64,000 nucleotides of DNA from Sphingomonas hankyongi (GTDB lineage Bacteria > Pseudomonadota > Alphaproteobacteria > Sphingomonadales > Sphingomonadaceae): contig NZ_JAMGBE010000001.1 in the NCBI RefSeq assembly GCF_023516575.1, positions 310,001 to 374,000 of the forward strand, read 5' to 3'. Positions 21,453-25,645 of the stretch are shown one piece after another; positions within the stretch are counted from its first letter, which is position 1, and every line of letters starts with the position of its first letter. A program made the translations under genes and the position numbers. The notes below the pieces were generated by a model. The model was given only the letters and a program-made list of their open reading frames with translations, was not told the DNA's origin and searched no databases.

Positions 21453-21461
21453 GGGCGCCTT

Positions 21462-21528
21462 GTACCCCGGCGAAGGCCGGGGTCCAGTCCAACGAGCAAA
21501 GTCTGGATTCCGGCCTCCGCCGGAATAC
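21462..21528. repeat. 67-bp paired-palindrome repeat, copy A (mcm-pccA junction)
   Basis: Two hairpin units face each other. Unit 1 (21462-21489) reads GT, then 8-bp arms ACCCCGGC/GCCGGGGT with loop GAAG, then CCAGTC. Unit 2 (21501-21528) is inverted; on the other strand it reads GT, arms ATTCCGGC/GCCGGAAT with loop GGAG, then CCAGAC. The spacer at 21490-21500 is CAACGAGCAAA. Copy B has the same length and almost the same spacer. Confidence 0.88.
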
Positions 21529-21536
21529 GGGCCAAC

Positions 21537-24345: not shown

Positions 24346-24759
24346 CTAGTGCGCCGGCGTTTCCATGATTTCGGTCAGAACGCCGCCCATGTCCTTGGGG
24401 TGGACGAAGAAGACGAGCGTCCCGTGCGCGCCGATGCGCGGCTCGCCCAGGACACGCGCGCCCTTCGCCTCGAATTCGGCCTTGGCTGCGTGGATCTCCG
24501 GCACTTCGAAGCAGACATGATGCTGACCGCCGAGCGGGTTCTTCTCGAGGAACTTCACGATCGGGCTATTCTCGCCAAGCGGCTCGATCAGCTCGATCTG
24601 GCTGTTCGGCGTGTCGACGAAGCAGACGCGCACGCCCTGCGCGGGAAGGTCGAAGGCAGGCCCGTGCGGCTCCGCGCCGAACATGTCGCGGTAAAGCTCG
24701 AGGCTCTGCTCGATCGACGGCGTCGCAACGCCGACATGGTTGAGGCGGCCTAGTTTCAT
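24346..24759 (-). CDS. mce: Methylmalonyl-CoA epimerase
   Basis: The 137-residue VOC-fold enzyme converts (S)- to (R)-methylmalonyl-CoA between the carboxylase and the mutase. The opening LGRLNHVGVATPSIEQSLELYRDMFG, the middle segment LGGQHHVCFEVPEIHAAK and the ending LVFFVHPKDMGGVLTEIME carry the family's His/Glu metal ligands. Its Shine-Dalgarno (CTCC on the plus strand at 24767-24770) touches the end of the GIY-YIG element at 24771, so the element sits directly upstream of the ribosome site. Confidence 0.93.
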   Translation of the reverse strand: MKLGRLNHVGVATPSIEQSLELYRDMFGAEPHGPAFDLPAQGVRVCFVDTPNSQIELIEPLGENSPIVKFLEKNPLGGQHHVCFEVPEIHAAKAEFEAKGARVLGEPRIGAHGTLVFFVHPKDMGGVLTEIMETPAH

Positions 24760-24770
24760 GAACTTACTCC

Positions 24771-24799
24771 GTCATGCTGAACTTGTTTCAGCATCCATT
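24771..24799 (+). repeat. Left inverted hairpin end of the GIY-YIG element
   Basis: The unit is GTC, arms ATGCTGAA (24774-24781) and TTCAGCAT (24787-24794) around loop CTTGT, then CCATT. It is identical over 29 bp to the reverse complement of the right end. Confidence 0.93.
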
Positions 24800-24819
24800 C
24801 CTTCGCATGCACTGCCGCC

Positions 24820-25128
24820 GTGAAACAGCCGTGCGTCTACATGCTTGCCAGTCAGGAATATGGGACGCTTTACGTCGGCGTCACCTCCGACCTGATCGCG
24901 CGACTCTATCAGCACCGAACCGGCGGTGTGAAGGGATTCACAGCAAGGTATGGCGTAAATAGGCTCGTGCGGTTCGAGCAATTCGAGACGATGCTCGATG
25001 CCATCTCAAGAGAGAAGCAGCTCAAGCGGTGGCATCGTCAGTGGAAGATCAACCTCATAGAGAGCGAGAATCCGCGGTGGGCGGATTTAGCTCCTAGCTT
25101 GGGCCTGCCGCCGCTTCCGTCACCCTGA
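24820..25128 (+). CDS. Small GIY-YIG endonuclease-family protein (COG2827/UPF0213-like)
   Basis: The 102-residue protein is essentially one GIY-YIG domain. V6-Y7-M8 and Y18-V19-G20 correspond to the GIY and YIG strands, R28 and H32 lie in the catalytic helix (LIARLYQHR), and E65 in SREKQLKRW matches the metal-binding Glu. The tail NPRWADL is usual in this subfamily. Such domains make single-strand nicks or double-strand cuts using one metal ion. The start is GTG without a clear Shine-Dalgarno. It is antisense to the propionyl-CoA operon and is flanked by perfect 29-bp inverted hairpins, suggesting it acts on those repeats. That link is inference. Confidence 0.88.
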   Translation: MKQPCVYMLASQEYGTLYVGVTSDLIARLYQHRTGGVKGFTARYGVNRLVRFEQFETMLDAISREKQLKRWHRQWKINLIESENPRWADLAPSLGLPPLPSP

Positions 25129-25152
25129 GCTCGCTTCGTTTTCACTCTCGGC

Positions 25153-25181
25153 AATGGATGCTGAAACAAGTTCAGCATGAC
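25153..25181 (-). repeat. Right inverted hairpin end of the GIY-YIG element
   Basis: This is the exact 29-bp reverse complement of 24771-24799, so on the minus strand it again reads GTC, 8-bp-arm hairpin, CCATT with CCATT facing the gene. It lies 5 bp from the osmC-like stop codon. Confidence 0.93.
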
Positions 25182-25186
25182 ATTGC

Positions 25187-25645
25187 CTAAGACTCGACCG
25201 TAACCTCGGTCGTCACAGAGTTGGCGATGAAGCAGGCTTCGTGCGCGCGGTGGTGCAGGTCGGCGATGTCCGCTTCGTCGGGCGTGCCGCCGTGCCAGAT
25301 GATGCGCGGACGCAGGGTTACGCGGGTGATCGCAATCTTCCCGGCGCCGTTCTTCTCCATCACGCCCTCGGCCTCGTCGTGATAGCTGTCGACCGTCCAC
25401 CCGTCGCGCCGGGCGAAATCCAGGAAGAACAGCATGTGGCAGGAGGCCAGCGAGGCGACGAACGCTTCTTCGGGATCGACGCCCTTCGGATCGTTCCACG
25501 GTGCGGGGACGACATGCGGGCTGGGACTTGCCGGAACCACCGCGCCGCCGTCGAACGCCCATTCGTGCGCGCGGCTATACTGACCTTTGGTGAAGTCCCC
25601 ATCGCCGGTGCGGTGCCAGTGAATCGAGGCGCTGTAGGTGCTCAT
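25187..25645 (-). CDS. OsmC-family peroxiredoxin-like protein
   Basis: The 152-residue protein has the OsmC core: GVDPEEAFVASLASCHMLFFLDFARRDGW with the first redox Cys, and HHRAHEACFIANSV with the second. Family members reduce organic hydroperoxides. It sits 7 bp behind pccB and would be the second gene of the propionyl-CoA operon, before the GIY-YIG insertion. A direct link with propionate metabolism is not established. Confidence 0.88.
   Translation of the reverse strand: MSTYSASIHWHRTGDGDFTKGQYSRAHEWAFDGGAVVPASPSPHVVPAPWNDPKGVDPEEAFVASLASCHMLFFLDFARRDGWTVDSYHDEAEGVMEKNGAGKIAITRVTLRPRIIWHGGTPDEADIADLHHRAHEACFIANSVTTEVTVES

Follow-up and report, generated by a model that had tools for sequence, protein, structure and literature searches.

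REPtrons, which combine a RAYT (TnpA_REP) enzyme with GTAG REPs and REPINs, are among the described systems closest to the element reported here. One small gene lies inside inverted palindromic REPs, gene-free REP pairs occur as well, and a genome may hold several REP types, each with its own gene. The REPtron enzyme is an HUH-tyrosine transposase (PF01797). GIY-YIG enzymes hydrolyze DNA, and no covalent link is formed. Members of the GIY-YIG superfamily in Neisseria, named Ssn, are reportedly site-specific single-strand nucleases with a cognate repeated genome sequence (NTS), and the study of them is said to have dealt with cutting and natural transformation.

A further group, the CGTC-tagged REPs, was described by Di Nocera, De Gregorio, and Rocco in 2013 (PMC3733652). 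As defined in the sections of that paper used here, they carry the tag CGTC, TGTC, or CCTC, an 8- or 9-bp stem that opens with AT, a loop of 4 or 5, and the tail CCA; head-to-head dimers predominate, and the repeats are common in Alphaproteobacteria, including the sphingomonads S. wittichii, S. chlorophenolicum, and N. aromaticivorans. The same sections equate Neisseria dRS3 with CGTC-1 and also place Rickettsia RPE-4 and RPE-6 among the CGTC-REPs. On mobility, they state that transposase genes are not found in association with the repeats, which "apparently lack a dedicated transposase," and they consider a broad range of transposases as possible movers (PMC3733652). The term "GIY" is absent, by term search, from the main text of that paper and from a 2025 REP survey, and no publication linking a GIY-YIG gene with REPs was found in a literature search whose coverage left out most subscription journals and all preprints.

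Here we describe a 411-bp unit of Sphingomonas hankyongi, located in a stretch of 64,000 nucleotides (the window; contig NZ_JAMGBE010000001.1, positions 310,001 to 374,000). It is one unit with type-matched ends and conserved catalytic residues, and it is present or absent at fixed sites; relatives hold a few copies in each of three genomes, with the REPs as ends in one, and gene-free REP pairs. From these comparisons we consider it rather probable that the unit is a minimal REPtron-like mobile element, in which two inverted CGTC-type REP hairpins, tags outward, surround a small GIY-YIG nuclease gene matched to its own REP type, and in which the nuclease would act on its own REP hairpins. CGTC-REPs are already described; their pairing with a GIY-YIG gene is REPtron-like, with another enzyme class.

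Structure and composition of the element

The features are listed in Table 1, where the name mce for the glyoxalase-type neighbor is that of an earlier note on this DNA, made from the letters alone.

Table 1. Features of the element and its flanking genes (positions in the window)
Feature	Position	Strand	Remarks
Whole element, 411 bp	24771..25181	+	Between osmC stop and mce start
Left CGTC-REP	24770..24799	+	Tag CGTC, stem ATGCTGAA/TTCAGCAT, loop CTTGT, tail CCATT; 29-bp exact repeat from 24771
GIY-YIG nuclease gene, 102 aa	24820..25128	+	GTG start; PF01541, E 7e-15
Right REP, inverted copy of 29-bp unit	25153..25182	-	Own-strand tag reads TGTC
Glyoxalase-type gene (PF13669; mce)	24346..24759	-	Flank, outside element
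osmC-type gene	25187..25645	-	Flank, outside element

The 29-bp unit GTCATGCTGAACTTGTTTCAGCATCCATT is found exactly at 24771-24799 (+) and 25153-25181 (-), with GTC outside and CCATT inside, and the earlier note was right to place the 102-residue GIY-YIG protein within exact 29-bp inverted hairpins; no such inverted unit occurred in 100 dinucleotide shuffles. Folded as single-stranded DNA (30 to 31 nt, both strands), each REP forms an 8-bp stem with a 5-nt loop at -6.7 to -8.1 kcal/mol (z of -4.2 to -4.5), with short outer pairing added in two of the four folds. The G+C content of the interior is 58.1%, against 63.4% for the window; the figure of about 55% that the note gave for the interior fits the whole element instead (55.7%). 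Only 3.4% of 353-bp windows are as low in G+C as the element interior.

The repeats agree with the definition of CGTC-REPs in tag (CGTC left, TGTC right), in the 8-bp stem with AT as its first two pairs, and in the order ATGCTGAA, CTTGT, CCATT; stem, loop, and tail agree with family CGTC-2 as that family appears in the sections used here (PMC3733652). Across 152 loci, the base before GTC is C in 88% (left) and 86% (right). The stems show paired changes, e.g., GC in 26 and CG in 23 of 53 at one type-2 pair, a covariation that supports pairing, for a hairpin in single-stranded DNA and for a duplex palindrome read by a dimer alike.

The source genome (2.5 Mb, 8 contigs) holds the 29-bp repeat at only 5 sites (at most 3 mismatches in 26 bases), including the two of the element itself, whereas up to 218 core sites were counted in one relative, and dimers were seen in six relatives examined. 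Same-type REPs are thus dispersed in relatives, and the 29-bp unit is not confined to this locus, a possibility that the earlier note had raised against its own proposal. The GIY-YIG gene is single in the source genome; one further PF01541 match lies in a 697-aa frame, which we take to be UvrC. With one such gene and 5 REP sites, nothing in this genome shows activity.

The element shares with REPtrons the inverted REPs around a gene and a REP type specific to that gene, but it has neither an HUH tyrosine transposase gene nor the GTAG tag; its enzyme is GIY-YIG (PF01541) and its tag CGTC or TGTC. In comparison with a free-standing GIY-YIG homing endonuclease, it is intergenic and has intact palindromes at both ends.

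The GIY-YIG protein

Residues Y7, Y18, G20, R28, H32, E65, and N84 correspond to the catalytic set of GIY-YIG enzymes. Each is conserved in 175 or more of the 178 proteins, which is what an active enzyme would lead one to expect. The AlphaFold2 model of the window protein has a mean pLDDT of 79. Its best fold matches are the GIY-YIG domains of UPF0213, Slx1, and UvrC (Foldseek E of 0.0032 at best, none at E 0.001), and sequence similarity to these domains is likewise weak (phmmer E of 0.0026 at best); fold and motif are common to them and the window protein. The Slx1 and UvrC domains act on branched or damaged DNA. Among alignment columns sought as setting the REP type, one (column 70) passed, weakly. 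A phage origin was rejected, because a search of 50,697 phage records at E 1e-5 gave no match, as was identity with a defense-system, phage, or named NCBI family, for which matches were weak (best E of 0.0017).

REPs around GIY-YIG genes in relatives

The survey comprised 194 loci (30, 160, and 4 from the genus), which, at a minimum length of 85 aa, gave 178 distinct proteins. The family and phylum are taken, from their named members, to be Sphingomonadaceae in the broad sense and Pseudomonadota. The family set consisted of 30 loci, two of them (L022 and L024) clipped in one analysis, and 80 further places from the match list. The set from other families of the class consisted of 28 loci (L259 to L286) with 20 stronger and 20 weaker places, and the set from other classes of the phylum of 18 loci; all three sets lean to closer homologues. 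Of the weaker places, L303 belongs to the window's own family, and L304 gave no match and was dropped, leaving 19.

Among the best 80 of 243 matches, from sphingomonads or MAGs with broader names, 71 have a CGTC-REP in plus orientation before the gene and one in minus orientation after it. In a typed search, CGTC-REPs stand on both sides of the gene in 153 of the 178 distinct family proteins, on one side in 21, and on neither in 4. Of 904 control windows taken from other parts of these loci, 0 had REPs on both sides. The REP type is the same on both sides in 152 of these 153: type 2 (CTGAAC-GTTTCAG) in 109, type 4 (CCCGCGAAGGCGGG-like) in 25, type 3 (CCGGACTTGATCCGG-like) in 16, and type 1 (TTGCGAG-AAGCAA) in 2. 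These type labels were defined in the present analysis, and up to 6 mismatches were allowed (7 to 8 for type 1). In 125 of 178, the REPs nearest the gene on its two sides both point their tags outward; the other arrangements are (-,+) in 16, (+,+) in 12, and (-,-) in 4, with a REP on one side in 17 and none in 4. The commonest element length in relatives is 401 bp (53 of 152).

A strict descriptor found REPs on both sides in 118 of 181 cases, on one in 35, and on none in 28, against 0 of 181 after shuffling and 0 of 928 windows elsewhere; it was loosened to a generic one (GTC followed by a hairpin) because visible REPs were missed through edge mismatches. The generic descriptor matched both sides in 142 of 178 family proteins (one side in 27, none in 9). 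Among the stronger homologues outside the family, it did so in 19 of 48 where only the class is shared (one side in 15, none in 14) and in 11 of 18 where only the phylum is shared (one side in 5, none in 2). For the weaker GIY-YIG homologues it matched both sides in 0 of 19 and one side in 1, and for control windows both sides in 0 of 871 and one side in 64. A GIY-YIG gene is found between CGTC-REPs in most family homologues, whereas the 2013 description, in the sections used here, states that they are not associated with transposase genes (PMC3733652).

Eleven loci from a plasmid collection were inspected by eye and by their best inverted repeat. Outward-tagged REPs lie on both sides in L328, L331 (Aeromonas), L336, and L337; in L332 (Azospirillum lipoferum AZO_p3), REP pairs lie on both sides of the GIY-YIG unit, between sufB and sufC. 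Hairpins of CGTC style in other arrangements were seen in L329 (Neisseria), L334, and L335, and CGTC-REP ends were absent from L327, L330, and L333. The records in this collection that measure 4.9 Mb, from Aeromonas, and 2.2 Mb, from Neisseria, are of chromosome size and may be mislabeled chromosomes. In L334, on plasmid p1 of Planktothrix agardhii, the GIY-YIG homologue lies between an MmeI-like gene and the DISARM gene drmA, with GTCATTCTGAG-type repeats nearby.

Correspondence between REP type and enzyme

On a protein tree of 178 proteins and 101 columns, in which 94 of 175 inner branches are open, the REP type changes 10 times over 169 labeled rows, against a shuffled mean of 51.7; none of 200 shuffles was as low. 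REP type tracks the protein clade, as would result from shared descent of gene and ends in any unit that is inherited as a whole. Several genomes (G006, G071, G087, G104, and G122) each combine two or three GIY genes that differ in REP type, a further likeness to REPtrons.

Across the 199 family genomes, those with a closer best homologue tend to have more type-2 cores (Spearman 0.61), a value to be read with the non-independence of related genomes and with the two cores of each element included in the counts, which inflates it. Among the 53 genomes with at least 10 type-2 cores, 50 have a homologue, 42 of them at 1e-33 or better; 3 are without a homologue and 11 without one at 1e-33. Conversely, a close homologue occurs in 5 of the 90 core-free genomes.

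Y1_Tnp (PF01797, RAYT-type) is found in 31 of the 199 family genomes and in 12 of the 53 REP-rich ones, leaving 41 without it, and its count in the source genome is 0; a RAYT or other Y1 transposase was rejected as the REP partner on these numbers. They also bear on the explanation that the GIY-YIG gene is a passenger, i.e., cargo, or a host gene trapped by REPs that a RAYT/Y1 or some insertion sequence transposase moves in trans. The presence of Y1_Tnp in part of the family fits this, as does the opinion, in the sections of the 2013 paper used here, that a broad range of transposases could move CGTC-REPs (PMC3733652). We nevertheless regard a passenger as very improbable: Y1_Tnp, the sole transposase type searched, is missing from the source genome and most REP-rich genomes, and REPs of matching type enclose this one gene family in most homologues of the family and in part of those outside. 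The GIY-YIG enzyme is the leading candidate partner for CGTC-REPs, given that gene and repeats together are present or absent at the same sites in related strains. The 41 REP-rich genomes without Y1_Tnp agree with one part of the earlier note, which had the GIY-YIG enzyme fill the RAYT role; that role can be inferred at most, because a hydrolytic nuclease cannot carry out RAYT chemistry alone.

Filled and empty sites

Of the 20 osmC loci listed for the genus, 14, the window's own included, show mce on the downstream side within the stretch compared. The earlier note had proposed to look for an empty site at this junction in sister species, and one is present in 4 of the 13 sister loci (L060, L065, L072, and L075), where the gap is -1 to 2 bp; L075 has frameshifts in both flanking genes. 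One sister locus, L068, holds the unit in the same orientation as in the window, with 82% protein identity. In L063 and L069 a different GIY-YIG gene (61% and 53% identity to that of the window) lies in the opposite orientation with type-1 REPs, and the six other loci hold GIY-free sequence of 139 to 902 bp, with REP-like pieces in L061 and L066. Judging from the other GIY-YIG/REP pair and these pieces, the junction is a possible REP hot spot. In one sister genome (L074), it is instead the space between pccB and osmC that holds a GIY-YIG homologue (70%), surrounded by REP pairs.

A second site lies on Sphingobium plasmids, in the gap that separates fnrL from a response-regulator gene. Seven records, four examined in sequence and three by BLAST only, hold a GIY unit with type-3 REPs there. 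The four are TomMM7A, TomMM15, TomTYG73 (whose gene has a one-base gap), and TomTYG46 (with a shortened right tag). In TomTYG64 and TomTYG74 the gene is absent, but its left edge is still marked by a single palindrome that bears a CGTC tag at each end and looks like a fusion of the left stem with the right REP; alignment of the right flank resumes after about 13 nt. Neither the gene nor the double-tagged palindrome is present at this gap in TomTYG72, TomTYG65, and S. herbicidovorans. The palindrome may be a footprint of the unit or its precursor. Among type-2 repeats, palindromes with two tags are rare: 16 of 199 genomes hold them, at 21 places in total, against 0 in the control; an 8-bp direct repeat within the stems could also yield them by slippage, enzyme-free. 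At the plasmid loci of Rhizobium tumorigenes (L327) and Sinorhizobium (L333), no clean empty site was present among the matches listed.

With gene and hairpins as one unit, present or absent at fixed sites, and with dispersed same-type REPs in relatives, the REP-like mobile unit of the earlier note is partly supported; its REPs are CGTC-tagged and not of the GTAG kind.

The gene is patchily distributed (a homologue in 141 of 199 family genomes), and in-frame stops occur in a minority of homologues among the matches listed; the stop-bearing homologues appear to be decaying copies, as expected of a mobile gene. This patchiness, the stops, and the presence or absence of the unit at one site among close plasmids, together with the empty sites, argue against a domesticated host protein with the task of maintaining or trimming REP hairpins, for which the flanking REPs would be regulatory or terminator hairpins of the gene. 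Such a factor, although compatible with the strong conservation of catalytic-type residues and with Slx1 and UvrC domains among the nearest solved folds (with weak scores), is to us very improbable.

Copies within genomes and the absence of target-site duplication

Four similar copies, with pairwise DNA identities of 86 to 94% over 409 to 513 bp, are present in G135 beside a diverged fifth (L340); this genome is a 77%-complete MAG of 450 contigs, and the copies could come from mixed strains. G111 has two similar copies (94% over 525 bp) and a diverged third, and G165 has two (78% over 406 bp). Homology in G165 starts at CCGTCA and stops at TGACG, and the REPs are therefore the ends, while in G135 and G111 it extends past the REPs by tens of bases to about a hundred. 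The flanks of similar copies differ in all three genomes. Most within-genome pairs are diverged; in G359, any DNA block was found in only 6 of 45 pairs, the best being 66 to 68% over about 270 bp or 73% over 138, and a recent burst in this genome was rejected on account of that divergence.

As in insertion sequences and transposons, there are terminal inverted repeats, empty sites, and several similar copies (in the relatives G135, G111, and G165; one copy in the source genome). The usual target-site duplication is lacking: among 152 units none was found beyond the shuffled range. The outer flanks of these units are C-rich and G-poor on both sides.

The lack of a duplication also suits the chief alternative, in which the protein is a site-specific single-strand nuclease that shapes DNA uptake and recombination, as is said of Neisseria Ssn and NTS; it would cut incoming or replicating single strands that carry REPs, and the cassette would spread by homologous recombination between REPs and flanks, with no transposition. 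The window protein resembles Ssn as a small GIY-YIG protein with conserved catalytic-type residues. Ssn reportedly has a cognate sequence repeated in the genome, and the view of the earlier note that no named family has this pairing is doubtful on that account. A Neisseria gonorrhoeae homologue, encoded by an unannotated reading frame not named Ssn, has 58.6% identity over 85% of the query and CGTC-type hairpins nearby, and Neisseria dRS3 is equated with CGTC-1 in the sections of the 2013 paper used here (PMC3733652). The nearest REPs at that Neisseria locus, however, are not arranged tags-out around the gene. Movement to new sites is called for by the similar copies with differing flanks in G111, G135, and G165, and by the osmC-mce junction, which sister species have filled with two different GIY/REP pairs. 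We hold this alternative to be serious but unlikely.

Gene-free REP pairs

Gene-free REP pairs, chosen because they were visible as pairs in the list of core sites, are a likeness to REPtrons that could be measured. Core spacing is 62 bp in 11 of 15 measurable pairs (from G006, G026, G033, G087, and G162) and 54 to 65 bp in the rest; in four pairs of G165 it is 110 to 111. The tails match those of GIY units of the same genomes in G006 and G162, which share sites (CCAG in 15 of 16; units L028 and L029), and in G165 (CCAT in 8 of 8; unit L020). They read CCAT in 4 of 4 in G026, whose own unit has CCAT and CCAA, in 4 of 6 in G087, whose own unit has CCAT, and in 4 of 4 in G033, where the tails alone were scored, with no GIY unit in the comparison.

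The interiors of the 19 measurable pairs are mostly unrelated: 5 of 23 within-genome and 4 of 148 between-genome comparisons exceed the best shuffled score, and 3 of the 4 high between-genome scores are G006 against G162, whose like interiors are probably orthologous. That the pairs are copies of one unit was rejected, with likeness in the 5 within-genome cases being weak.

Proposed mechanism and implications

For the minimal mobile element that we favor, the enzyme would recognize the tagged hairpin in single-stranded or extruded DNA, during replication, uptake, or repair, and would cut at or near the tag. Since GIY-YIG enzymes hydrolyze DNA without a covalent link, the chemistry would differ from that of RAYT; no covalent strand transfer is expected, and annealing, repair, and ligation by the host would replace the covalent step. 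The outcome would be excision, sometimes leaving one double-tagged palindrome, and rare insertion without target duplication, and REP pairs of about 91 bp would be non-autonomous partners. Several observations weigh against this reading: the single gene and 5 REP sites of the source genome, the lack of a target duplication, the stronger homologues outside the family in which the generic descriptor did not match both sides (29 of 48 and 7 of 18), the plasmid loci L327, L330, and L333, the divergence of most within-genome pairs, the REP-rich genomes without a homologue, the close homologues in core-free genomes, and the rarity of double-tagged palindromes.

We put forward more tentatively, as a possibility, that CGTC-REPs across the phylum, and perhaps in others, are mini-elements of a class of transposons without a classical transposase, in which a hydrolytic, REP-type-specific GIY-YIG nuclease cuts tagged hairpins and host repair completes the movement, and in which excision can leave a double-tagged palindrome. 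If so, the enzyme of the CGTC-REPs, a question left open in 2013, would be settled. A type-matched GIY-YIG gene gives each REP type a candidate enzyme, and the spread of REPs becomes testable in harmless sphingomonads of the laboratory. If the nuclease does move DNA, a hydrolytic nuclease together with host repair can drive a REP-based mobile element, and the many natural enzyme/hairpin pairs may serve as sequence-specific DNA tools.

Other palindromic repeats

Beside fnrL, the gap in TomTYG72 (L356) is without a GIY unit and holds another short palindromic repeat, CTCCCTCTCTCC...GGGGAGAGGG, instead. The window itself contains a second palindrome pair at 21461-21529, composed of TGTACCCCGGCGAAGGCCGGGGTCCAG and an inverted partner, which looks like a REP pair with an altered tag; a core of the TGTACCCCGGCGAAGGCCGGGGTCCAG type occurs at 9 sites in the source genome, against 4 for a reversed-pattern control. 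In the same genus, TGTT-tagged hairpins flank a GIY-YIG gene (L220, G197).
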